A DNA stretch of 64,000 nt. Source: Candidatus Neomarinimicrobiota bacterium. GTDB taxonomy: Bacteria > Fidelibacterota > UBA2242 > B5-G15. The position numbers and the translations under genes are program-made. Shown here piece by piece: positions 1,241-13,848 of the stretch. The stretch is taken from assembly GCA_017656425.1 (NCBI GenBank), contig JACDNV010000007.1, positions 1-64,000 of the forward strand, written 5' to 3'. Numbering within the stretch: the stretch's first letter is position 1; every line of letters begins with the position of its first letter. The notes under the pieces are model-generated. The model had not been told where the DNA came from, did no database searches, and saw only the letters and a program-made list of their open reading frames with translations.

Positions 1241-2323
1241 CTATAGTTTTTTCTGGTAGTAAAATTCAGCCAATATTGATGACAAGATTGCCTTGATAAG
1301 ATGAAAAAATCTCGATGCTAAATTATTATAATCGCATTTTATTTCGGGATATATGCGATATTGAATAAGTTTATAGAAGTCAGAATTTGATGTTGAATCT
1401 GACTTTTTCATTTTAAGAAGAATATTCCTTGCAAATGCATAATATAGAAAAGCTGGGTAAGAAATTTCTGTAAATAATATCGATATGAGTTTCTCTGGTA
1501 TATTTATATAGTTTATTGAGGGAAGGTTTAATCTTATTTTTTCTTTAAGGAATTTGTAAATAGGTATAAACGTGTGCATCAAATGGAAATTATCTATAAT
1601 TGAAATCGTGGTAGATAAATTTTCATATTCCAGTGATTTTTTTAGAAGATAATATATATCAATAATGTCAAAAGGATGTATAGGGAGAAAGTCGTTATGA
1701 TGATAAAAGGTATGATATAGTCTATATACGAGAGATATATTAAAAGAGGGGATAAGAATTTTGAATTTATCAAAATCATAAAAGTTGCAGGATTTTATTA
1801 GATATTCAATTATAGAATTTTCGGGAACATTGTTAACAGGGAAGAAATGAAGATCAAAAGTTACCATTCTGTCTTTTGTCTGGATAACTGTTCGATTATA
1901 ATTTTCTGAAACTATTTGATAATTTTTAAAGATCAATTTAATAATTTTTTCCTTTCTATTTCTTTTGAGCAATAGATCAATGTCTTTTGGAAGGTAACCA
2001 TCATAGTTATTCCAGTATGGACTAATCAATTGGATACCACCTTTAAAAATTATTAATTCTTCACCCTGCAGAATTTCTAAGAAATTTCTTAATTCAGCTT
2101 TAAAATATTTTTTTCTGAGGATATCTAATTCCCTTGAATTCTGTAAAAGTTGGCTTAGAATACCTGAATTTAATTTAATACTTTTCTGCTCAACATGATA
2201 GGCGATAAAGGGTAGTATTTCATAGTTTTCAAAGTATTCAAAATTATTTTCTATCTCGATGGGTTTTAAAGCTACAGTTTTACTGGTAATAAGGTTGAAA
2301 ATGGTTTTTAGGGGATGATTCAT
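1241..2323 (-). CDS. NTP_transf_5-like nucleotidyltransferase family protein
   Basis: A 360-residue protein with the hallmarks of the uncharacterised nucleotidyltransferase family NTP_transf_5: FKGGIQL (residues 93-99), then KDIDLLLK (113-120) with paired aspartates expected to bind metal, then TFDLHFF (about 155-161) supplying a third acidic residue. The rest is helical and unassigned. Members of this family often sit beside HprK-related kinases and PqqD-like proteins in polysaccharide/exosortase loci and in some lasso-peptide clusters; here the same neighbours follow upstream. It starts inside the end of the 2320-3444 gene (4-base ATGA overlap), indicating translational coupling. The substrate is unknown. 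Confidence 0.7.
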   Translation of the reverse strand: MNHPLKTIFNLITSKTVALKPIEIENNFEYFENYEILPFIAYHVEQKSIKLNSGILSQLLQNSRELDILRKKYFKAELRNFLEILQGEELIIFKGGIQLISPYWNNYDGYLPKDIDLLLKRNRKEKIIKLIFKNYQIVSENYNRTVIQTKDRMVTFDLHFFPVNNVPENSIIEYLIKSCNFYDFDKFKILIPSFNISLVYRLYHTFYHHNDFLPIHPFDIIDIYYLLKKSLEYENLSTTISIIDNFHLMHTFIPIYKFLKEKIRLNLPSINYINIPEKLISILFTEISYPAFLYYAFARNILLKMKKSDSTSNSDFYKLIQYRIYPEIKCDYNNLASRFFHLIKAILSSILAEFYYQKKL

Positions 2324-3444
2324 AGGGAAGTATTTATTAATTCTATTAGTAGCTTTGTTAATTCTTTTTTATCTTTGATGGATAAATCAGAATCATAGAT
2401 TTTTCTATATATTTCGTCTACCGATGAGTATCTATCAACACTCTGGATGATATTTAATAAAAACTCCCCTTTTTTATTTAGAGATAATTTATACTCCTTT
2501 CCAGTTGGTACGAGAAAGGAGGGGGCTATGAAAGAATTCTTAAATGTATTGAATTCTTGATGTATGTCCTTATAAGTTACTGCCCACTTAAAATTTATTT
2601 CGTCAGTTCTGGGTGATTCGTACGATAAAAGAGTCACTGTAACATACTCTCCTTTCTTTACATTCATTGTATGCCTAAAAGGAAAAAACATTTGTCCCCA
2701 GCTTGATATTCCTTTAAGAGGTGAATTGGAAAACTTATTGTCAATGGGGAAGATACAATCCCACCATGCTACAATCCCGTGAAGTATTCCATTATGTGTT
2801 ACAACAATATCTCCTTTAAATTTGAATGTAAATTCTTCATCCGAATTTATGTTTATCTTTTTTATACATTTTTCTTTACTTAGTAATTGTATGTTTTCAT
2901 CATCGAGGTAGTAGGGCAGGTTAAAGGCTAGTTTTGTTGTATAGCTCCAATCTATCTCATATAAGCGATCCTCTGTACTTCTCATTATATCAAGTTTTTT
3001 GTAAAAAGAATTTGCCTGGCAAAGGGCTATTTTTATTTCAAATTGATATGGAATAAAAGATCCATTCTTTTTTAGAAAGCGTTTTTTTGCATCGACTATA
3101 ACGTTTTTCAATCCAGGATACAAAAAAACTGGTGTATAATCTTCAAAAATAATATAATCAACAGTTTCGGGTAATTCAATTTCTGTTGAGTGCCCTTTCA
3201 AAAAGGTTATTCTTTCATACATTCCATTATTTCTGGCGATAGTCTTTGCAACTTCAATCAAATCAGTTTCTTCGATTGCATATGTAGCCTTTGCTCCTGC
3301 CATTGCCGAGAAAAATGAATACGTACCTAAAGCAGTTCCAATTTCAGCAATTACAGTGCTATTATTAACAACCTGAAATATTGAATTTCTAAAGGCTTCT
3401 ATTCTATTGTTTTCACATAATAGTTCTCTGTATTCGTGTATCAT
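2320..3444 (-). CDS. PRMT-like methyltransferase with PqqD-like C-terminal tail
   Basis: 374 residues. The N-terminus (LLCENNRIEAFRNSI) and the Rossmann core match the protein arginine methyltransferase pattern: motif I IAEIGTALGTYS (32-43), acidic AIEETD (56-61), LPETVDYIIFEDY (91-103) at the position of the PRMT double-E loop, and LKKNGSFIPY (124-133). Residues about 135-300 fit the PRMT beta-barrel region. Only the first glutamate of the double-E loop is evident (E101); the second is not. The last 60 or so residues (LSLNKKGEFLLNII...) look like a PqqD-type winged helix, a peptide-recognition fold in RiPP pathways. The gene lies 5 bases from the HprK-like gene and overlaps the nucleotidyltransferase gene. 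The target is unknown; a peptide or protein is the natural guess. Confidence 0.65.
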   Translation of the reverse strand: MIHEYRELLCENNRIEAFRNSIFQVVNNSTVIAEIGTALGTYSFFSAMAGAKATYAIEETDLIEVAKTIARNNGMYERITFLKGHSTEIELPETVDYIIFEDYTPVFLYPGLKNVIVDAKKRFLKKNGSFIPYQFEIKIALCQANSFYKKLDIMRSTEDRLYEIDWSYTTKLAFNLPYYLDDENIQLLSKEKCIKKININSDEEFTFKFKGDIVVTHNGILHGIVAWWDCIFPIDNKFSNSPLKGISSWGQMFFPFRHTMNVKKGEYVTVTLLSYESPRTDEINFKWAVTYKDIHQEFNTFKNSFIAPSFLVPTGKEYKLSLNKKGEFLLNIIQSVDRYSSVDEIYRKIYDSDLSIKDKKELTKLLIELINTSL

Positions 3445-3449
3445 TTTAT

Positions 3450-4277
3450 CTATTCTAAATTTTTAAAAAGGGTAGCTTCTTCTTCATCATTAAGAAAAAA
3501 GGGATGCTTAAATTTCATAAGGCGGTATTCAGCAAGGGTTAAAAGATCGTTGATAGATTCTAATAGTCGTCTTCTTATATTATAGGGATTATATACTACT
3601 TCAATAAAGTTATTGAAAATGTCAACAGCACCTGGTTTTTTTGTTCTTGTTTCATAAAAAGTGTCTATAAAGAAAATTTTTTCAATTGGATAAAATTTTA
3701 TTTTCGCTATTTTTCCAAAATAGGATGGATCGAGATAAATATATCCAGATACTTTTAAAAGTTTATCGTCAGGTAAATTGAACATTTCAATTATATCATT
3801 ATTAATTCTTGGCTTTAAAATAATATTTCTCACGACGGGGTATATTCTTTTCTTCTTAAGATCTATCATAACAAATTCGTCACCTGCAAATAGATAATCG
3901 TGATTTGCTAAAAATATACTCAGTGTTGTTTTTCCTGATTTTGCCGGTCCAGCAAACAAATGTGCTTTACCATCTTTTATTAGACATGCTGAATGTATAA
4001 TAAGTTTATCTTTGTTTTTTGTGAGGAATTCGTTGATTATCTTAGTTTCAATATCATAGACAATGTTTGATATTTTTCGGTTTCGGTTAACTACTCTATT
4101 GTTTTTTGTGATTACATATTTATCACATTCTTTTTGTATTATGTATTTTGGTTCGTCTTTCTTATTGGTATATCTTGAGTGATACTTAAAAACATATTCC
4201 CTTATTAACGGTGCTATTTCATCTTCGATTGCGATGGTTATGTTTGCGTTTGCGATTTTAATATTGATTGTTTTCAT
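3450..4277 (-). CDS. HprK-related P-loop kinase
   Basis: 275 residues resembling the C-terminal kinase domain of HPr kinase. IIHSACLI (93-100) precedes the Walker A GPAKSGKTT (110-118), followed by FAGDEFVMID (130-139), where the DE pair fits the catalytic/metal position. The N-terminal 90 residues are unlike the HprK regulatory domain and resemble those of HprK-related proteins of PqqD-containing systems. Characterised relatives in lasso-peptide clusters phosphorylate a C-terminal serine of the peptide; whether this one modifies a peptide, a sugar or a protein is not known. It overlaps the PqqD-like gene by 4 bases (ATGA), so the two are probably made together. Confidence 0.7.
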   Translation of the reverse strand: MKTINIKIANANITIAIEDEIAPLIREYVFKYHSRYTNKKDEPKYIIQKECDKYVITKNNRVVNRNRKISNIVYDIETKIINEFLTKNKDKLIIHSACLIKDGKAHLFAGPAKSGKTTLSIFLANHDYLFAGDEFVMIDLKKKRIYPVVRNIILKPRINNDIIEMFNLPDDKLLKVSGYIYLDPSYFGKIAKIKFYPIEKIFFIDTFYETRTKKPGAVDIFNNFIEVVYNPYNIRRRLLESINDLLTLAEYRLMKFKHPFFLNDEEEATLFKNLE

Positions 4278-4561
4278 TTTTCTTTAAGTTTTACAAGATG
4301 ATTGTCTATCATTTCCTTAATCGAGTTTTTAACTATGTCAATTATACCGTCATTTATATTGTTAAAATCTTCTTTTAGTGAGTTTATTATGTTTGAAACT
4401 GTGTTCTTGCCATCGCATAGAGTCCAGATATAAGCAGCGGTATTGTTCAGAGAAAATATTTTTTCTTCATTAGGGTTATATAAAATTATTCCGTCATCTA
4501 CTTCCTTTTCTAGTATGTCTTCATTCCTTATTGGCATTGAATCTAAGCTGATACTTTTCAT
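4274..4561 (-). CDS. PqqD-like small protein (peptide-binding fold)
   Basis: 95 residues with the PqqD-family profile: GIILYNPNEEKIFSLNNTAA (25-44) followed by YIWTLCDGKNTVSNIINSL and a helical tail ending in LVKL. PqqD proteins bind leader peptides and pass them to a partner enzyme, often a radical-SAM/SPASM protein; such an enzyme is encoded in this locus at 11078-12244. In the HPr-rel-type systems a PqqD protein stands beside an HprK-related kinase, as here. No leader peptide was recognised in the window. Confidence 0.7.
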   Translation of the reverse strand: MKSISLDSMPIRNEDILEKEVDDGIILYNPNEEKIFSLNNTAAYIWTLCDGKNTVSNIINSLKEDFNNINDGIIDIVKNSIKEMIDNHLVKLKEK

Positions 4562-4562
4562 G

Positions 4563-5999
4563 TTAGACAGTCCCGAGTTTTACCATTTTAATTTCATCTT
4601 CAATACTTTTCAATATTCTCTTTTCTTCTTTTTCAATAGTTGGGAACGACTGTACTAATCCGCATAATAACCAATATGGTTCCATAATCCTTACTATAAT
4701 AAATGTATTTGCACCAATTGAATGAAAGATCATTGCAACAGTGCCAATAATAAAGCCCTGAGCTATGGCTTTAAAAAAAGGTATTTTTGTTTCATCCTTC
4801 ATTTTTTTTGTTTGTTTTATTATTGAATATAAAAGATAAATAAATGTAGCGAGTCCTACCAGTCCAGTTTCAATCATAACTCTAATAAACTGGGCGTCAA
4901 GAAAGCGCCAGCCTGTAATTCCATACCCAAAAAGAGGGTGCTTTTTTATATCCCTGAAAGCCTTTTTCCAGCTTCTTAGGCGTTCAGATGCGGATGGATC
5001 AACAACTATTCCGCCTGGTAGCTCTTCTTGAAGACTCCTTGCCCATCCCTGTTGTTCCTTAAACGTGTATTTGATTCGATCTACCACCGTTTGCGGTAGA
5101 ATATATGGTGCAAGAAAGATAAATGCCACGGTAAAAGCAAGCACTATGTACCTTCTTTTGCTGATTATAATATAGCTAATAATTACTGGAACCGTTGCAA
5201 GCCATGATCCTCTTGAGTTAGTAAGTAATAATGGTACTATTGATAATAAGGTAACAAAACTCAATAATTTTCTTAATATGGGTCTTGGATAAGACTTTGG
5301 AGGTAAATTTAATATAAGACTCATATTTAGAGACATTAAAAGGAGAATATATCCTCCTAGTGTATTAGGTTCACCTTCCTGACCTTCAAATGGTGCCGTA
5401 AGTCTTTGACCTGTGGGTATTTGTGACAACGCGATTAAAATTACCAGTAAAAAAGTTATCTGCATGGAGATAATAAATCGTTCTACCTGTTTTTTAGAGT
5501 GAACCTGATTAGCCACCATGAAATAAATCATGAAATACTCAATATATTTAAGGATGAAAAATGCACCCCTTAGCGGATTAACTCTACCTGCTAATACACC
5601 GAGGGCAGTTGCGATGAAACATGCTATCAAGTAGTAAGATATTGGGACATTAAGGGGAGTTTTTCGAAAAATCCCAAGTTCCTTATAGATTGCCATTTTG
5701 GCTAACCATGTAAATATTATTACTGATAATATTATATCGTCGATTCTAATTGTAATTCCTTCTCCCCTTGTGGTTCTTGCTCCAAGTTCAGGAGATAGTA
5801 GCATTGAGAATATCAGGATGTATATTGCAAAGTCAGTATTTATAAAAGTGAATATTAATATACCCCCTCCAATTGCAGCTACAATAGCAAAAACAGGATC
5901 GATTTTAATAAGAAGATAGGCAATAAGAAGAGTAATTGGAATAGTTAATATTATTACTATTTTATTTATTTGATTTTCCTGTAAAATAGTATTGCGCAT
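4563..5999 (-). CDS. O-antigen ligase/polymerase family membrane protein (Wzy/WaaL-like)
   Basis: 478 residues with about ten to twelve hydrophobic helices and a large loop at roughly residues 305-350, typical of the Wzy_C/O-antigen ligase family. The loop and its edge hold the characteristic ...GIT.WRFLDAQFIRVMIETG pattern before the last helices. It would polymerise or ligate lipid-linked repeat units on the outer face of the inner membrane. It lies between the small membrane protein and the PqqD-like gene with one-base gaps, in the same unit as the Wzc- and Wza-like genes, which supports polymerase over ligase. The specific glycan is unknown. Confidence 0.75.
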   Translation of the reverse strand: MRNTILQENQINKIVIILTIPITLLIAYLLIKIDPVFAIVAAIGGGILIFTFINTDFAIYILIFSMLLSPELGARTTRGEGITIRIDDIILSVIIFTWLAKMAIYKELGIFRKTPLNVPISYYLIACFIATALGVLAGRVNPLRGAFFILKYIEYFMIYFMVANQVHSKKQVERFIISMQITFLLVILIALSQIPTGQRLTAPFEGQEGEPNTLGGYILLLMSLNMSLILNLPPKSYPRPILRKLLSFVTLLSIVPLLLTNSRGSWLATVPVIISYIIISKRRYIVLAFTVAFIFLAPYILPQTVVDRIKYTFKEQQGWARSLQEELPGGIVVDPSASERLRSWKKAFRDIKKHPLFGYGITGWRFLDAQFIRVMIETGLVGLATFIYLLYSIIKQTKKMKDETKIPFFKAIAQGFIIGTVAMIFHSIGANTFIIVRIMEPYWLLCGLVQSFPTIEKEEKRILKSIEDEIKMVKLGTV

Positions 6000-6000
6000 T

Positions 6001-6309
6001 CTATAGACTGTCAGTTTTGCTATTGTACAAAATAGTTTTATATTCTTTATCCCAGTCTGGATTTAATTTTTTTCTATAGGTTTCTTCATATTGCTTTTGT
6101 AATGCAGTTTCTTTTTTTACTGCTGAACCATCGTAATTAATGTTTTTACCATTGCTCATTCTATTATAGGCATATTCCATGATATTTGGAAGTTTTGTCG
6201 TAGTTATACTCAATAGAAAACCTATTGGAATTGCAATGGTAACAGTAAAAATAATAGTCTTCTTTTCATAATAGGTCATTCTTCTCTTATGTTTCCTTTT
6301 TGTAATCAT
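6001..6309 (-). CDS. small single-pass membrane protein, function unknown
   Basis: 102 residues: a very basic N-terminus (ITKRKHKRRMTYYEKK), one membrane helix at about 18-38 (TIIFTVTIAIPIGFLL), and a charged C-terminal part of about 60 residues rich in lysine and tyrosine. By the positive-inside rule the tail is outside the cytoplasm. It overlaps the Wzc-like gene by 4 bases and lies 1 base before the Wzy-like gene, so it is made with both and may be an accessory of the polymerase/co-polymerase complex. No family recognised. Confidence 0.6.
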   Translation of the reverse strand: MITKRKHKRRMTYYEKKTIIFTVTIAIPIGFLLSITTTKLPNIMEYAYNRMSNGKNINYDGSAVKKETALQKQYEETYRKKLNPDWDKEYKTILYNSKTDSL

Positions 6310-9300
6310 TTTGCTTGGTTAATTATAGAATTTAATTGTGAAAATAGAAAGTTTTCTGCCATTTCAGTATTTTTAAATCTTCCAAGATATAATCTATATC
6401 CTTTAATTTCTCCAGAATTATTATAGATTTTTTTAATATTGGCAAATTCATCATATTTCAAATTCTGAAGTTTCCCTTTTGCTTTTGATAGGGATTTATA
6501 TTCGCCGATAAAGATTGTATAGCCTAGATTTAATGGAATAAATTTACCCATTATACCGTGAAACATTAATGTTGGTGCCGCTGATTTTGCCTCTTCTGGT
6601 GTTGAGAAGTTACCAAAGCATACCAGAAATTTGTTAAAACCGGAAATTTGAAAATTTGGAATAATAACTGCATCTATTCCAATATTTGATAGCTCGTTTT
6701 TATAATTTATGGCTTCCTCTTCATCTGAAAATGATTTAATTAGCAGGGTAAATGGTCTATTTAATTTTATGATTTTACTCTTGAAACTTTGTAATTTGTT
6801 TATTTGTAAGTTATCCTCGTTAATGTATTCTATTCTGTAGGGTTTCGTGACTGTTTGTTGCAAGGCTGTGATTGTCTGCTGTGAGATTTGTCCTTTCTTA
6901 TCAATTTGCTCCGTGTGTATAATTTCTTGCTCTTTTTTTGTCTGGCTTGCCGGCTGACTTATTGGGGGGATTCCGCTCTGAGTTTTAACAGTTAAAGAAG
7001 TGTCTTTACTTACAAGGTTCGGAGGCAGTGCCTTTTGACTTTCTGTTTTTTTAATCAAATTTATTAACATAGAGCCCATTAATATAAGTGATATTAATAC
7101 TACACTCAATCCCATGATTTTTAGTTTTCGTAGCCTTTTAAGGAAAGTATCGGAAGGGCTAGTTGGTGGCTTAAGAAATTGCCTTTTAAGGAAAGCAACG
7201 ATTTTATTTTTTTGCTCTTCCTCTTCACTTCCGTATGTATAGTAATATTCATAGGAATACTTATATGTATAGTAATCAGCACTTACATCTGCTCTCATAC
7301 CGTTTATAACAACTCCCATGACGTCTGACTTTAACATATCAAGTTGTGATTTTGCTCTTCTGAGTGTACCTCTTGATACTTTTCCCTGATAGTAGGCGAT
7401 TATTGTGGTGTCAACTTTAGTACTCAGTATAGTGGCATCTGTCGCTTGCATAATTGGTGATGTGTCAAGAATTATTATGTCATATTTGTTTTTGAGATTT
7501 TCTATAAGTTCATCTATAAATCTTGAGGCAAGTATCTCAGAGGGATTTCTTTCTGATTTCCCTGCGGGGAGAATATTTAAGTACTCTATTCCAGGGATAG
7601 ATTCGTCGCTTAGAATTTCAGTTGCCATAGTTCCTGTTATCAAATCCGACATTGTTCTTATGGTTTCATCGGGTTCTGCTCTTTTTAAGATTATATCTGT
7701 GAGTCCTGGTTCTCTATCAATACCAAAGATTTTTGAGATTTTTGGTCTTCTAAGATCTGCCTCAATTAAAAGTGTGTTTAATCCAATCTGAGCCATCGAT
7801 ACAGCCAGATTAACTGCAATGGTTGTTTTTCCTTCTGCTGCGACAGAACTTGTAATAGAAATTGTTTTATAACCCTTGTCCATTAATCCGAAGTGAATGT
7901 TAGTTCTTAAAGATCTAAAAGCTTCAGCCATTGTGCTTTTTGGATTAAAATGCGAGACGACACGCGCTTGCATTTCCAGAATGTCCTGAGTAATAGGGGT
8001 AGTTATTTTAGATTCAAGAGATTTTATATGTTCTTCCATATCAACATGAGGAATAACTCCGAGAACTGTTGTGTCAAGTGTTTTCTCGATTTCATCAATA
8101 GTAGAAAAGGTGGTATCCAGGGTTTCTGCAACAAAAGCCAGAATAACGCCAAGAATAAGACCAAGAACAATACCAACTGCAGTTGTAGGACCTACATTCG
8201 ATGGATTGATTGGAGAAGTAGGGAGGAAAGCAGGTCTTAAAAGATAAACCTCCTGGACCATTTCGGATTTCCGAATTAAAGCATCTTGATATTTTAATTG
8301 AAGTTCTTCATATATTTTTGTGTTTACGCTTAATTCCCTTTCTAGGTCAGCAAGTGTTAAGGCATATAATGGGAGATTTCTATATTCTTCGTCCAAATTT
8401 TTCCATTTTTCATATAATATCTGTTCGTTATTCAACAATGATTTTCTATAAGCTTTTAATTCTTCTACGAATCTATTTTTTAAACTTGAAATCTGGGATT
8501 TTATATTTTTAATGATTGGGTGCTCTTCAGTGTAATAATTTGAATATTGTTGGAGACGATCTTGCAGATTACTTAGCCGGGCTTGAAGAGAGTTTAGTAG
8601 TGGTGTAGGATTATTTAACATGACTTTTACTGAAGTGTAATATAAATAATCAGGATTTGAGTTTATTTCAGCAATAAGATTGTCTATCTGTTTAATATCA
8701 TTTCTTATTGCATCTAAATCTGCTTCAACTTTTGTTAGCTCAGCCAGTAGCCTTGAAGAACTATTATCAAGAGTAATAAATCTATGTTTAGATCTATATT
8801 CTCTGACCTTTCGCTCTGTTTCTTCCATTGCTCTTTTAGCATTGTCAAGTTGGGTTTTTATTGTTTCCAATGCTTGAGTAATCTGTTTATTTCTTTCTTT
8901 GAAACTCTCTTTAACATAGACTTTTGCAAGTGCATTAGCAAGATCTCTTGCTTCATATGGGTTGGGGCTTTTTACAAGAATATTTATTATATTGGTATAA
9001 CCTTCTTGCTCTGTTTTTACTTTCCCTTTAAGTCTTAAAATAATAGAAAACAGTTTTGGATTATTGCGAATTTCGTCCGATGTTAAATTTGAATCAATTA
9101 AGCCCATAGCTTGAGCTGCTTTCTCAATTATCGGATAGCTTTTTATTTCTTCTGCCCTTGTAGCAAGGTCGTCGCCGCCACTCCAATAGTAGTTATATAG
9201 TCCGGCTAAAGAAGTTATTTTCTCTATTTTTAAGCTTGCTACAGCTTGATAAATTGGTTCAGGTCTATTCATTAAGGCGAAGATAAAACTAAACATTCCC

Positions 9301-9386
9301 AACAATATTACCGTTGTAATTACAATAATGCGTTTCTTTTTTATTATTCGCCAATAATCTCTTAAACTTAATTCATATTGTGGCAT
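6306..9386 (-). CDS. Wzc-type polysaccharide co-polymerase/BY-kinase fused to two SPOR domains
   Basis: 1026 residues. Wzz region 1-420 with membrane helices at 19-38 and 402-420 and a long periplasmic coiled coil (about 165-380). BY-kinase domain 480-700 with Walker A SSVAAEGKTT (513-522), Walker A' LLIEADLRRP (539-548) and Walker B DIIILDTSP (636-644). A tyrosine cluster of nine Tyr lies at 705-718, the usual autophosphorylation tail. Most such proteins end there. This one continues with a third membrane helix (757-778) and two SPOR-like repeats (about 879-950 and 956-1020), which should therefore lie in the periplasm and bind peptidoglycan glycan strands. It would control chain length and export with the SLBB protein encoded 11 bases upstream. 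Confidence 0.85.
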   Translation of the reverse strand: MPQYELSLRDYWRIIKKKRIIVITTVILLGMFSFIFALMNRPEPIYQAVASLKIEKITSLAGLYNYYWSGGDDLATRAEEIKSYPIIEKAAQAMGLIDSNLTSDEIRNNPKLFSIILRLKGKVKTEQEGYTNIINILVKSPNPYEARDLANALAKVYVKESFKERNKQITQALETIKTQLDNAKRAMEETERKVREYRSKHRFITLDNSSSRLLAELTKVEADLDAIRNDIKQIDNLIAEINSNPDYLYYTSVKVMLNNPTPLLNSLQARLSNLQDRLQQYSNYYTEEHPIIKNIKSQISSLKNRFVEELKAYRKSLLNNEQILYEKWKNLDEEYRNLPLYALTLADLERELSVNTKIYEELQLKYQDALIRKSEMVQEVYLLRPAFLPTSPINPSNVGPTTAVGIVLGLILGVILAFVAETLDTTFSTIDEIEKTLDTTVLGVIPHVDMEEHIKSLESKITTPITQDILEMQARVVSHFNPKSTMAEAFRSLRTNIHFGLMDKGYKTISITSSVAAEGKTTIAVNLAVSMAQIGLNTLLIEADLRRPKISKIFGIDREPGLTDIILKRAEPDETIRTMSDLITGTMATEILSDESIPGIEYLNILPAGKSERNPSEILASRFIDELIENLKNKYDIIILDTSPIMQATDATILSTKVDTTIIAYYQGKVSRGTLRRAKSQLDMLKSDVMGVVINGMRADVSADYYTYKYSYEYYYTYGSEEEEQKNKIVAFLKRQFLKPPTSPSDTFLKRLRKLKIMGLSVVLISLILMGSMLINLIKKTESQKALPPNLVSKDTSLTVKTQSGIPPISQPASQTKKEQEIIHTEQIDKKGQISQQTITALQQTVTKPYRIEYINEDNLQINKLQSFKSKIIKLNRPFTLLIKSFSDEEEAINYKNELSNIGIDAVIIPNFQISGFNKFLVCFGNFSTPEEAKSAAPTLMFHGIMGKFIPLNLGYTIFIGEYKSLSKAKGKLQNLKYDEFANIKKIYNNSGEIKGYRLYLGRFKNTEMAENFLFSQLNSIINQAK

Positions 9387-9397
9387 AATTTACTCAT

Positions 9398-10624
9398 TTA
9401 AATCTTACCTTTTAAAATTAAATAAGTTATTGTCGACGCATAAATAAGATTTATGATTGTTCTAAGTGGGTCAATCTTTTCTGCAAATTGATATAGAAAA
9501 CTCTGTTTTCTGCTGGGTACTATAATTCTATCGCCATTTTCAATTAAAACATTTCTTCTATCATCTCTTTTGTATAGATAATCGTGCATATTAAAATGTA
9601 TTATTTTACCATTAGCCCTTGTAATAGTTATTTTTTTATAATCTGCATCGCTAGTCAAACCTCCTATTTGTGCTAAAAATTCAGCAACCCTAACATTTCC
9701 TCTTATAGGATAGACGCCAGGTCGGTTTACTGCTCCAAAAACAAATACATTTCTGGAGCTTATCTCCTTGACATTTATATTGACATAGGGGTTTGAATAG
9801 TAGTTTTTTGCTATTTCTCTAATTTTGTCTTCTGCTTTTTTTATGGTAAGTCCACCAATTTTAACTGCTCCTAATAGATTATGGTAAATGTTTCCATTTT
9901 CATCTATTGTGTAAATATCGGGTGTTTCACTTGATTTCCCACTTAACTCTGCTTCTGATAAAGTTAGCTCTATTACGTTTCCGTATTTTAGAATATAATT
10001 TTTTGTCCCAGTTTTAAATAATTCCTCTGGCGAAACCCTTGGTACAATTATTTTATCACCTTCCTGTAATATTACATTCTGCGATTGGTCGTTTGAAAAA
10101 ATGTATTTATCCATATTAAAAAAGAGTGTAGAACCATCTCTTCTACTAATTATAATTTTTGTAATGTCAGCGTCGGGAGTAGTTCCCCCTTTCTGGATAA
10201 TAAATTCTGCCACTCTAGTATCCGGGGTTATAGAATATACGCCTGGGTTGTATACCTCTCCGTATAACAGTACACTTATCTTTCTTTTCTGATATATTGA
10301 TAGCCTTACTTTAGGGTCATTAAAGTATTTGCTGAACTTATCCCGTAAAAGAATCGTCAATTCTGGCGATGTATATCCTGATACTTTTATATATCCAATT
10401 AATTCATGCAGAATATAGCCATCGGAGTTTACAGTGTAAATATTGGACCTTTCGATTGGTGAACCATCACGTCCTATATCAACGTAAAGTATTTCAAGCT
10501 TATCACCTGGATGAATAGGATAATTTTCATCGTTGATTGCATAATCAACACTATTCTGAGAAAATAATAGCATATTAATACTTAAATTTAGTATTAGAAT
10601 AATAAAATATTCTTTGGATTTCAT
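9398..10624 (-). CDS. Wza-like polysaccharide export protein with duplicated Poly_export-SLBB module
   Basis: 408 residues with an N-terminal signal sequence (about 1-22, ending LLFSQ) but no lipobox cysteine. Two similar halves follow. Each has a Poly_export motif (HPGDKLEI near 38-45; KYGNVIELTL near 214-223) and an SLBB domain with matching phrases: LYGEVYNPGVYSI and FGAVNRPGVYPI, TRVAEFI and VRVAEFL, GDKIIVP and GDRIIVP. A hydrophobic stretch at about 389-405 ends the protein. It should form the outer-membrane or periplasm-spanning exit channel for the glycan. It lies 11 bases before the Wzc-like gene. Confidence 0.85.
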   Translation of the reverse strand: MKSKEYFIILILNLSINMLLFSQNSVDYAINDENYPIHPGDKLEILYVDIGRDGSPIERSNIYTVNSDGYILHELIGYIKVSGYTSPELTILLRDKFSKYFNDPKVRLSIYQKRKISVLLYGEVYNPGVYSITPDTRVAEFIIQKGGTTPDADITKIIISRRDGSTLFFNMDKYIFSNDQSQNVILQEGDKIIVPRVSPEELFKTGTKNYILKYGNVIELTLSEAELSGKSSETPDIYTIDENGNIYHNLLGAVKIGGLTIKKAEDKIREIAKNYYSNPYVNINVKEISSRNVFVFGAVNRPGVYPIRGNVRVAEFLAQIGGLTSDADYKKITITRANGKIIHFNMHDYLYKRDDRRNVLIENGDRIIVPSRKQSFLYQFAEKIDPLRTIINLIYASTITYLILKGKI

Positions 10625-10642
10625 GCCTGCCTACAATTTATA

Positions 10643-11005
10643 TCATTTGTATATAAGTTTTGCAAGTATACTGGTTTCCAGATATTCAAGATCAATTGGT
10701 TTTACTACATAATCTGAAGCACCCATTTCCATTGCCTTTAAAGCTGTTTTTTTGTCTATTACACCGGTAACCATAATAACGTCAATTTTCGAGTTTAACT
10801 CTTTTACTTTTTTTAAAACATCAATACCGCTGGCATCTGGGAGTCTTATGTCAAGCAGTATTATGTCCGGTTGAAAAGAAGTAATCTTTTCATATGTTTC
10901 ACTTGCCGATTGTGCAGAATCTACCTGATATCCTCTTTCTTTAAGGAACTCCTTTAGTAATTCGATAATTTCTAACTCATCATCTACTACAAGTATTTTT
11001 TTCAT
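10643..11005 (-). CDS. stand-alone CheY-like response regulator receiver
   Basis: 120 residues forming a complete receiver domain and nothing else: acidic pair D8/D9, phospho-acceptor D52 in ILLDIRLPD, switch T80 and K102 in YVVKPID. With no output domain it must act by protein contact or as a relay. It is 18 bases before the export gene, so it probably travels with the polysaccharide operon and may tune it. No histidine kinase lies in this arm; the nearest is at 30601. Confidence 0.85.
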   Translation of the reverse strand: MKKILVVDDELEIIELLKEFLKERGYQVDSAQSASETYEKITSFQPDIILLDIRLPDASGIDVLKKVKELNSKIDVIMVTGVIDKKTALKAMEMGASDYVVKPIDLEYLETSILAKLIYK

Positions 11006-11035
11006 TTTTTAATAACCTCGCTCTTTTAATTTAAT

Positions 11036-11065
11036 GATAAAAAAGTGGTTAGTCAATTAACTAAC
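11036..11065 (-). terminator. possible Rho-independent terminator after the radical-SAM gene
   Basis: On the minus strand, gttagtt-aatt-gactaac (11048-11065) forms a 7-bp stem (one G-T pair), followed three bases later by six T residues. The stem is A/T-rich, so it may be a weak terminator or attenuator between 11078-12244 and the response-regulator gene. Confidence 0.4.
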
Positions 11066-11077
11066 AAATACATACCT

Positions 11078-12244
11078 CTAATATCGGAAGAATTCTGTGC
11101 AACCTTTAGAACATACAGGGAATTTTTTTACTTTTTTAATATATGCACGGTATTCGGTATATTTTTTTGAGTTCCAGATTTTACGAAAGCTATTATGCCT
11201 AATATTGCCGATTGTATAATTCATTGTATGGTATGGCCTGATGCTACCATCGGGAAAAATATATGCAGTCATCCAGAGACTCATACATCTGTTTTTGTAT
11301 GTCTTAGATATAAACTCTCCGCCTGAGTACCAATCTCTTATTTCTTCTATTGATAGATTAGGAAAGAAAGAGACGCCAATGTTATATTTCTTTTGTTTTA
11401 TTGTTTCAATTTGGCTTATTAAATATTCAGCATCAATAGCTACTGGATTTCCGTAGGCAAATCCAATCCAATCAGTAGGCTTCTGTCCAAATTTTTTTTC
11501 AAAAAAATTTATAAAATTAATAACCGTGTGTTTTTTTAAGAAAAGTAGGTGATGAAATGTTATCATTTTTGTGCCGATTGACTCTGCTACTTTAATTATT
11601 TCTTCAAGATTTTTATAGTTTAATTCATTTATCGTAGTGTTTATGTTTACGACTGGTTTTTTTTTGCCGTACTTCTTCTTTAGATTGTTAAGATATTTAA
11701 ATCCCTCGATCGTTTTTTTGAAAGTTCCTGGCACTCTTCTGATTTTATCATGTATTTCCTCGGGACCATCAAGAGAAAATATTATTTCATCTATTCCAGA
11801 GTTTACGATATCAACGGCATATTTTTTTATAAGTGTGCCATTTGTCACTATATTACACCTTAATCCGTTTCCTTTTATGATTTTTACTATTTCAATCCAG
11901 TCAGGATGAAGCATCGGTTCGCCACCAAATAAAGTGAAATTGGTTTTATGCATTTTTACATCTTTTACAGTTCTTTCTACATCCTCTTTTGTTAGAATAA
12001 GCTTTAAGACGCTTTTTGAAAAATTTTTAAATGCTCCATCCTCTCCCCACTGCCCACACATGAAACATCTCAGATTACATTTAAAAGTAAGAAAAAGTGA
12101 TATAGTTTCTGGGTAGTAGCTTTTTCCGTTGGATAAATGATAAAATCCAACTCCCATTAGTCTGTGAAAGAGGTTTATTAAAGCATATTCTGGTTGTGCT
12201 AAGGCTTTTTTAATTGCCCTTAAGAGATTTTTTCTTGGTACCAT
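11078..12244 (-). CDS. radical SAM protein with degenerate SPASM-like C-terminus
   Basis: 388 residues. The radical-SAM cluster motif is KCNLRCFMC (C56, C60, C63), with GGEP at 107-110 binding the methionyl end of SAM and a TIM-barrel pattern after it. The C-terminus (about 318-388) has the SPASM outline (C320, YIFPDGSIRPY, IGNI, C378, C382), but the cysteine normally following PDG is a tyrosine (Y338), so it can bind at most a reduced auxiliary cluster. SPASM enzymes modify peptides, and a PqqD-like partner gene lies in the same locus (4274-4561), but a non-peptide substrate is also possible. It lies between the cNMP/FHA gene and a weak terminator. Confidence 0.75.
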   Translation of the reverse strand: MVPRKNLLRAIKKALAQPEYALINLFHRLMGVGFYHLSNGKSYYPETISLFLTFKCNLRCFMCGQWGEDGAFKNFSKSVLKLILTKEDVERTVKDVKMHKTNFTLFGGEPMLHPDWIEIVKIIKGNGLRCNIVTNGTLIKKYAVDIVNSGIDEIIFSLDGPEEIHDKIRRVPGTFKKTIEGFKYLNNLKKKYGKKKPVVNINTTINELNYKNLEEIIKVAESIGTKMITFHHLLFLKKHTVINFINFFEKKFGQKPTDWIGFAYGNPVAIDAEYLISQIETIKQKKYNIGVSFFPNLSIEEIRDWYSGGEFISKTYKNRCMSLWMTAYIFPDGSIRPYHTMNYTIGNIRHNSFRKIWNSKKYTEYRAYIKKVKKFPVCSKGCTEFFRY

Positions 12245-12252
12245 TATTTAGT

Positions 12253-13023
12253 TCAAATAGTTATTTTAAATTTAAATGGTGAACGGATGCTGCCCAATGT
12301 TATTATGTTTTCACCCTCTTTTAGATCTGTTTTATAAATATTTGTTTCGCCCCCAATTTTTTTATCATTTACAATTGTGCCAAGACTACTACCTCTATCA
12401 AGAACATAGAATATTCCATTGAGATAATTAATGGACATGTGGTTTCTTGATACATTGTAGGGTGGTTTATCCTCAATATAAAGGTCATTTTCAATAAATA
12501 TGTCCTTGCTTCTTAGTCTTGTGTCCCTCCCTATTTTAAACGGGAATTTTTTGATTTCTATCTTTTTATCCCTAAGAGCTTTTTTACTTTCTTCTGTTAA
12601 TCCTTCTATTGTGATTGTTGGAATATCTTTTTCTGAAATTGATTTTACATCCATCCGTAATTTATCTTCCAGTTCTGCAACAAGCTCATTAGTCTGTCTT
12701 AATCTTTCAATTAAGGTTTTCATTATTGGAATTACAAACCTGGATTTGTCTCCAAGAATTCTCGAAAAATCTTCTCTTTTTATTTCGTCCACTATTACTT
12801 TTGTCTTTGCTCTTACCGATGCTGTACGGGGACTATCTTCTATCAATCCCAATTCTCCGAAGATATTTTCGGCTTCTATTTCAGCAAGTTTAATTTCTCC
12901 ACTATTTGTTTTCTTTGTAACCTCTACCACTCCTGATTTTAAAATATAAGCAGTTGAGCTAATTTCTCCTTCCTTGATTATAACGCTACCTGGTTCAAAA
13001 TATATTTCTTTCATATCAGCCAA
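12253..13023 (-). CDS. cyclic-nucleotide-binding domain fused to FHA domain
   Basis: 256 residues. Residues 1-118 form a cNMP-binding domain with GSVIIKEGEISSTAYILKSG (12-31) and the phosphate-cassette-like ENIFGELGLIEDSPRTASVR. A short coiled region follows, then an FHA domain (about 155-256) with KIGRDTRLRS, NVSRNHMSINY and DRGSSLGTIVN, the phosphothreonine-reading loops. It has no DNA-binding or enzyme domain, so it looks like a cytoplasmic signal integrator joining a nucleotide signal to Ser/Thr phosphorylation. It lies 8 bases from the radical-SAM gene and is probably co-transcribed with it. Confidence 0.85.
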   Translation of the reverse strand: MADMKEIYFEPGSVIIKEGEISSTAYILKSGVVEVTKKTNSGEIKLAEIEAENIFGELGLIEDSPRTASVRAKTKVIVDEIKREDFSRILGDKSRFVIPIMKTLIERLRQTNELVAELEDKLRMDVKSISEKDIPTITIEGLTEESKKALRDKKIEIKKFPFKIGRDTRLRSKDIFIENDLYIEDKPPYNVSRNHMSINYLNGIFYVLDRGSSLGTIVNDKKIGGETNIYKTDLKEGENIITLGSIRSPFKFKITI

Positions 13024-13446
13024 CCTTGGTTATAATTTAAAATTTTCACAATAATTATCTACAAAAATTTATATTTAATAAATTAATTTAAAAATAATAA
13101 TCATTTTGATATCTATAAGGATCGCCTAATTATTTGCAATGACTTTAGAATACTAACAGTTTTTTTAAGATTATCTGATCTTGTAATTGCATCTCTTATT
13201 TTTGATGTGTTTGGTATCCTTATTAATATATTGGGAAAGGTGCTTTTTCATAATTTTATTAATTAATTCGGGCTCATGATTTTTAGATACGTAAAAATTT
13301 ATCCGAAGGATTTCTTTGAGATATGAAGATTAAGTATATCTCCATTTCCTATTACAGGGATTTTTGAAACTCTCTTTAACTTTTTTATTATATCTCAGTC
13401 AGCAGGTTTAGAATACGGGTCTTTTGCTGTCCTACCATGAATTGTT

Positions 13447-13647
13447 AAGCGCAAAGGCTCAATGCAGAATGCAGAGTGCAAATTGAAAAATGCAAAATCG
13501 CCTTTTGTCAGATTTGGCTTTTGTACTCAAAATGTATACAGAAATAAATTTGACTTTTGCACTTTGCAATCTTCATTTTGCAATTGCCGTAAGGCTATCT
13601 TACCCTTCGGTAAATCGCCTTCGGCGACTTCGTTAATACAAGACGTT
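13447..13647 (+). repeat. 201-bp structured tandem repeat, unit B (internal type)
   Basis: First of two units inserted in the dus pseudogene, in the same orientation as unit A. It differs from units A and C at a few sites: acccttcggt instead of gcccttcggg, tgtatacag instead of tgtagacag, and cgttaataca instead of cgtgaayaca. It shares the last of these with the partial unit at 1-30. The ttacc/ggtaa change keeps the hairpin paired. Confidence 0.95.
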
Positions 13648-13848
13648 AAGCGCAAAGGCTCAATGCAGAATGCAGAGTGCAAATTGAAAAATGCAAAATC
13701 GCTTTTTGTCAGATTTGGCTTTTGTACTCAAAATGTAGACAGAAATAAATTTGACTTTTGCACATTGCAATCTTCATTTTGCAATTGCCGTAAGGCTATC
13801 TTGCCCTTCGGGAAATCCACATCGGTGACTTCGTGAACACAAGACGTT
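13648..13848 (+). repeat. 201-bp structured tandem repeat, unit C (terminal type)
   Basis: Second unit of the array, directly abutting unit B and ending at acaagacgtt, where dus sequence resumes. It shares the tgtagacag, gcccttcggg and cgtgaa variants with unit A, the last unit of the other array. The final hairpin is altered (cacATCGgtg) but can still pair. Confidence 0.95.

Follow-up and report, generated by a model that had tools for sequence, protein, structure and literature searches.

We identified a compact four-gene module comprising a PqqD-family protein, an HprK-related kinase, a PRMT-fold methyltransferase and a nucleotidyltransferase-fold protein on a contig of Candidatus Neomarinimicrobiota (JACDNV010000007.1, assembly GCA_017656425.1). 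The window that was analysed is a stretch of 64,000 nucleotides (positions 1-64,000, forward strand), and its proteins were assigned to families using Pfam and NCBIfam with curated cut-offs. All four open reading frames (ORFs) were confirmed on the minus strand, reading from 4561 to 1241. The PqqD-family protein (95 amino acids, 4274-4561) overlaps the HprK-related kinase (275 amino acids, 3450-4277) by 4 bases, a gap of 5 bases separates the kinase from the PRMT-like protein (374 amino acids, 2320-3444), and the latter overlaps the NTP_transf_5 protein (360 amino acids, GG...DID motif, 1241-2323) by 4 bases. An earlier note on this DNA had described four tightly packed genes in this order, which is what was found. 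The module forms the 3' end of a longer, compact exopolysaccharide operon (13023 to 1241), whose tight gene spacing suggests that it is a single transcript; scanning it for promoters and terminators yielded sites no more numerous than in shuffled sequences.

The linked module itself is well supported. The PRMT-like gene was found in 13 of the 23 genomes of the order, strong HprK-like matches occur in those same 13 genomes, and a search of 222 other genomes of the phylum returned no PRMT-like gene at E < 1e-10. The genomes of the order are drafts, and several of them have the module at a contig end. In every locus whose contig contains both genes, PqqD directly follows the gene encoding the Wzy-type protein. 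Co-occurrence of the genes outside this genome, on which the earlier proposal depended, was thus observed in 13 genomes of the order and also in two Planctomycetota lineages. In this phylum NTP_transf_5 was rejected as a member of the conserved core; it is present as the earlier note had it, but is in place in only two genomes of the order (the window and G001). For another PRMT ORF (L037) a long N-terminal extension was dismissed as a frame artefact, since that stretch is taken up by the HprK gene in a different frame.

PqqD folds are known peptide binders. The PqqD protein of the window scores 45.4 bits against PF05402 (cut-off 23.4), making it a discrete RiPP recognition element (RRE; RiPP, ribosomally synthesized and post-translationally modified peptide) of the kind found in the clusters for Linear Polyphosphorylated Peptides (LPP), and its D-G...LNxxAaxIW..CDG motif is conserved in 10 loci. 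The HprK-like protein stays below the threshold of HprK_rel_A / HPr-rel-A (TIGR04352; 46.7 bits, cut-off 200), and its assignment draws on this match together with fold, motif, invariant residues and gene co-occurrence. Its AlphaFold2 (AF2) model matched PEPCK and HPr kinases, invariant residues were seen across 11 HprK-like homologues, and H95, the P-loop K116 and D133 of the His-Lys-Asp-Asp motif are kept, with Glu134 in the last place, in agreement with the fold. The NTP_transf_5 protein scores 37.3 bits against PF14907 (cut-off 31.2) and so corresponds to the NTP transferase of LPP clusters. Its studied relative PsmN has been linked to hexose addition on phosphoserine, and nucleotidylation was not shown for it (PMC9266682), which qualifies the nucleotidylation step of the earlier note.

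The PRMT-like protein consists of a PRMT core (residues 1-295) and a PqqD-like helical tail (about residues 322-373). The core is recognized by PRMT_C (48.1 bits, cut-off 27), aligns to Hmt1/PRMT1 (E 6e-23) and gives an AF2 model (mean predicted local distance difference test score, pLDDT, 77) for which Foldseek returned PRMT structures (E about 1e-24). Both the PRMT fold and the motifs for binding S-adenosylmethionine (SAM) are present, the latter including EIGxALGTY, and Glu34, Gly36, Gly40, Glu58 and Glu101 are invariant among 11 aligned members of the order. Where PRMTs have the second Glu of their double-E loop, these members carry P, E, N, R, A, D, K or S, and their THW motif has become (S/T)WGQ, with loss of its His; the motifs were compared over 47 aligned homologues. 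In a Planctomycetota survey most solitary PRMTs retain both Glu residues and THW, and those linked to HprK are mostly without them (L100 being an exception). Because the second Glu and the THW His are absent, arginine appears an unlikely substrate; the earlier note was right about the PRMT fold, but arginine methylation does not follow from it.

A Pfam scan of the PRMT-like protein of the window gave no PqqD match in the tail, and by sequence weak matches of this kind were obtained for 3 of 21 members of the clade (E down to 0.032). In a profile-profile comparison (hhalign) the tail matched PqqD with a score of 31.7 (P 1.1e-5); no other part of the PRMT alignment scored above 14.4 and none of 100 column shuffles above 16.1, so that the PqqD-like tail proposed earlier holds. 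The match spans the helices and lacks the N-terminal hairpin of PqqD, and AF2 pLDDT in this region is 43-71; the tail is therefore best called a truncated PqqD-like winged helix, as judged from profile similarity.

The PqqD-HprK-PRMT trio is also present in three Planctomycetota loci (L069-L071), and a fourth (L072) is interrupted by a contig end. In a midpoint-rooted tree the PRMT-like enzymes of both phyla cluster together with 98/95 support, the branch of L069 being long. The Planctomycetota module occurs beside unrelated genes and is accompanied by a short ORF, which follows immediately after the PRMT gene in all four loci (4/4), in L069 as two tandem copies. A recurrent short ORF near homologues, for which the earlier note had suggested a survey, exists in these Planctomycetota loci. 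NTP_transf_5 adjoins the short ORF in L069-L071, the full order in L070 and L071 being PqqD, HprK, PRMT, short ORF, NTP_transf_5. The short ORFs of L069-L072 share S(K/R)R(D/E)FL..K, YxxPx(I/V) and P(S/T)xP, and their putative leader resembles the RRE-binding motif of lasso and LPP precursors. Remoter PRMT-like enzymes were found in lasso-type clusters, in L073 and L075 with an asparagine synthase and lasso-leader-like ORFs and in L076 with an asparagine synthase and PqqD. The PRMT-like enzymes of these three clusters bear a PqqD-like tail as well, and two of the three clusters include an HprK-like kinase. In a further locus (L083) a short ORF, PYRAPRVSTERIYERYGLACGK, adjoins a PRMT-like gene and a gene with a radical SAM-like start (4744-4884, 6339-7415).

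The module region of the window contains no suitable short ORF, and no A10 or A12 match was found within the 64 kb. When the unassigned short ORFs of the Marinimicrobia loci were compared with one another, the only matches were intergenic ones among close relatives. A profile built from the Planctomycetota ORFs, on the other hand, retrieved a Marinimicrobia family of 58-85 amino acid peptides from 12 genomes (E 2e-7 to 6e-4), and the two sets match in hhalign with P 1.2e-11. The family member of the window's own genome, MEEEKQKNIDKDRREFLKRMASSSIFVPPVIKSFSLLQISTWWWWTGHHHHHRWRTNEPPPPPPPPTPQ, is encoded on another contig (C1:247392-247601) and contains the invariant W-T-x-H-x-H and poly-Pro. Kept in 12 aligned peptides are R13, R14, F16, L17, K18, F26, P29, I31, F34, L36, W45, T46, H48 and H50. 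Across 245 genomes, the profile of the peptide family scores 98-132 bits in 14 of the 23 that belong to the order and never exceeds 20 bits elsewhere; the profile search found no member in the 222 other genomes of the phylum. The peptide genes adjoin lipoprotein-like genes, genes for beta-helix proteins with sorting domains, or ThyX. On contig C1 (L123) the gene lies between two related lipoprotein-like genes, with a 1366 amino acid beta-helix protein carrying a secretion sorting domain nearby. The earlier note had recognized no precursor; a candidate is now available, encoded in trans.

These results lead us to favour, with moderate confidence, the reading that the module is a RiPP-type peptide-tailoring unit within an exopolysaccharide operon, with a trans-encoded peptide that PqqD presents to the kinase and the PRMT-fold enzyme. 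The earlier suggestions that a PqqD fold and an HprK-type kinase belong to one linked module beside polysaccharide genes, and that this module probably acts on a peptide, are supported. The roles of the kinase, the RRE and NTP_transf_5 are derived from LPP and lasso systems, in which the RRE binds the YxxP region and an HprK-type kinase phosphorylates a hydroxyl residue, sometimes repeatedly (PMC13381572, PMC9266682, PMC10368454); the activity of such a kinase is raised by an RRE (PMC10368454). We infer that the discrete PqqD would bind the leader of the short peptide via a [Y/F]xxPx[I/V] motif, after which the HprK-like kinase would phosphorylate a Ser or Thr, the best candidate being the Thr that is invariant in the W-T-x-H-x-H core. 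Recruited by its own PqqD-like tail, the PRMT-fold enzyme would methylate a group of the peptide that is not arginine; NTP_transf_5, in those genomes that have it, may add a sugar or nucleotide onto the phosphate. In this phylum the trans-encoded peptide of 58-85 amino acids, which is of the twin-arginine type, is the likely substrate. After modification it would be a linear peptide that is probably exported and might serve the cell surface built by the same operon; that export follows modification is a guess from the Tat (twin-arginine translocation)-like leader.

Several observations weigh against this reading. The peptide gene is unlinked to the module in this phylum, and within the order 10 genomes have both, 3 the module only, 4 the peptide only and 6 neither, which is not significant (one-sided Fisher P 0.086). 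The phylum-wide association (P 1.5e-12) is confounded by shared ancestry, which accounts for most of the tiny P value because module and peptide are both confined to one order. The peptides are partly Tat-signal-like (TIGR01409, up to 18.2 bits) and could be plain Tat substrates, and the motif in the peptide of the window's genome has Phe (FxxPxI) in place of Tyr or Trp. The LPP kinase modified Ser only, an S3T variant remaining unphosphorylated (PMC13381572), and the invariant core residue here is Thr. Finally, no leader peptidase or dedicated exporter was recognized in the operon. Given the within-order P value of 0.086 and the draft state of the genomes, the trans-encoded peptide is the leading candidate for the substrate of the module, and unproven.

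The other genes of the operon may offer a different type of substrate. From 13023 the operon encodes, all on the minus strand, a cNMP/FHA protein, a radical SAM/SPASM protein (11078-12244; PF04055, PF13186; CxxxCxxC), a response regulator receiver protein (10643-11005), a Wza-type polysaccharide export protein (9398-10624; Poly_export, SLBB), a Wzc-type chain-length determinant and tyrosine autokinase with SPOR domains (6306-9386), a small protein of 102 amino acids with one transmembrane (TM) helix (6001-6309), and a Wzy/WaaL-type O-antigen ligase or polymerase (4563-5999; PF04932) directly upstream of the module. The one-TM protein belongs to no Pfam or NCBIfam family, giving weak matches only, and its GSAV(R/K)xET and Y..IL.N motifs are invariant in 8 loci. 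The module might modify this protein or Wzc and thereby control polymer length or export, the trans peptides being unrelated. The trio stands right after Wzy wherever a contig holds both, and the GSAV(R/K)xET protein is in the same operon, both of which speak for this explanation. The conserved part of the one-TM protein, however, follows the TM helix, which a basic N-terminus precedes, so it probably lies in the periplasm and apart from the cytoplasmic enzymes; in Planctomycetota the neighbours of the module are instead unrelated genes and a short ORF. We regard modification of a polysaccharide-machine protein as unlikely.

That the module acts on some other leader-bearing peptide, the RR-FLK peptides being ordinary Tat-exported surface peptides that share the signal only, seems to us quite unlikely. 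Such an explanation would account for their weak Tat matches, for the four genomes with the peptide and no detected module, and for neighbouring genes that are lipoprotein-like or encode beta-helix proteins and are not RiPP genes. Yet the peptides were reached from linked Planctomycetota ORFs, and with the family profile no long Tat-like protein elsewhere gets beyond about 17 bits, compared with about 100 for the peptides. Moreover, when the Planctomycetota ORFs and the peptides are compared over just the 26 residues that follow FLKK, the score is 19.7, compared with a shuffle maximum of 13.0; the likeness persists without the RRxFLKK part and is therefore more than a shared Tat motif. It is improbable that sugars or lipid-linked glycans are the substrates, with the enzymes decorating the capsule directly as sugar kinase, sugar O-methyltransferase and nucleotidyltransferase and PqqD as a mere scaffold, as the location beside Wzy and glycosyltransferases in an exopolysaccharide operon could suggest, since PqqD folds bind peptides, the PRMT-like enzyme itself has a PqqD-like tail, and related enzymes occur both in lasso-type clusters and at loci that have no polysaccharide genes.

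The radical SAM/SPASM protein, encoded close to the start of the operon, is a possible further maturase. SPASM enzymes are frequent partners of PqqD, and the position of the gene is kept in four loci (L022, L024, L026 and L031); its counterparts at other loci of the order are 53-60% identical. On contig C4 of this genome (L002) a second PqqD-family gene adjoins a gene for a multi-TM protein resembling an OPT-type transporter. The window also contains three copies of a 231-base repeat (1-231, 13417-13647 and 13618-13848), of which the two tandem copies sit inside an apparent interrupted dus-type gene.

In the literature covered, which included few subscription papers, no description was found of PqqD, RRE or lasso peptides together with an arginine methyltransferase or PRMT, and a direct search on HprK/PqqD combined with polysaccharide gave no papers. 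As far as this literature shows, what is new is the candidate trans precursor, the phyla, and a PRMT-fold enzyme that lacks the arginine-binding residues and bears a PqqD-like tail. Tentatively, and with less than even confidence, the system may represent a new RiPP subclass, in which a PRMT-fold enzyme that no longer targets arginine and has its own PqqD-like tail acts together with an HprK-type kinase on a trans-encoded Trp-Thr-His/poly-Pro peptide of the twin-arginine type, tied to capsule assembly. If our preferred reading of a peptide-tailoring unit is true, it would widen the range of phosphorylated-peptide (LPP, paeninodin-like) RiPP systems to include Neomarinimicrobiota and Planctomycetota, add to these systems a PRMT-fold methyltransferase stripped of its arginine-binding residues, and imply that a precursor can be encoded far from its enzymes. 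It also provides concrete proteins and a peptide for asking why such modules recur inside polysaccharide loci.

Among known systems, the HPr-rel-A and SynChlorMet (ScmC/ScmD) families of NCBIfam likewise combine PqqD with an HprK-related kinase and gave the best sub-threshold matches, but scores are far under their cut-offs (46.7/200, 56.5/100 and 17.1/125). The methyltransferase shares with PRMT1, Hmt1 and CARM1 the whole PRMT fold, the SAM-site residues and the first Glu of the double-E loop, and differs from them in the unconserved second Glu, the absent THW His and the added PqqD-like tail. Lasso clusters of the paeninodin/pseudomycoidin type (PMC9266682, PMC10368454) have a B1-like PqqD, an HprK-like kinase and NTP_transf_5 in common with the module, and such clusters in L073, L075 and L076 include related PRMT-like enzymes. 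The candidate peptide of the window's genome is, however, not lasso-like, and no asparagine-synthase-like cyclase or B2 protease is present among the operon genes, bearing out the earlier view that this is not an ordinary lasso cluster. Best read as a relative of LPP, the module corresponds to clusters with an RRE, an HprK-like kinase and an NTP transferase, without a macrolactam cyclase, that are located in capsule loci and phosphorylate a peptide with a YxxPxV leader (PMC13381572). The combination of PqqD, HprK and NTP transferase is thus already known as LPP, and the PRMT-like enzyme, whose addition the earlier note found unfamiliar, is what is new. An archaeal-type signal peptidase I or MsbA-like transporter, as in LPP clusters, was not found among the operon genes (1241-13023; the remainder of the genome was not searched), nor was a linked YxxPxV-leader precursor found in the window, the trans candidate having FxxPxI. 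The YxxPxV leader motif of LPP precursors is matched by YxxPx(I/V) in the linked Planctomycetota ORFs, and the module is set apart from LPP by its candidate precursor in trans with an RRxFLK leader, its extra PRMT-fold enzyme and its occurrence in other phyla.

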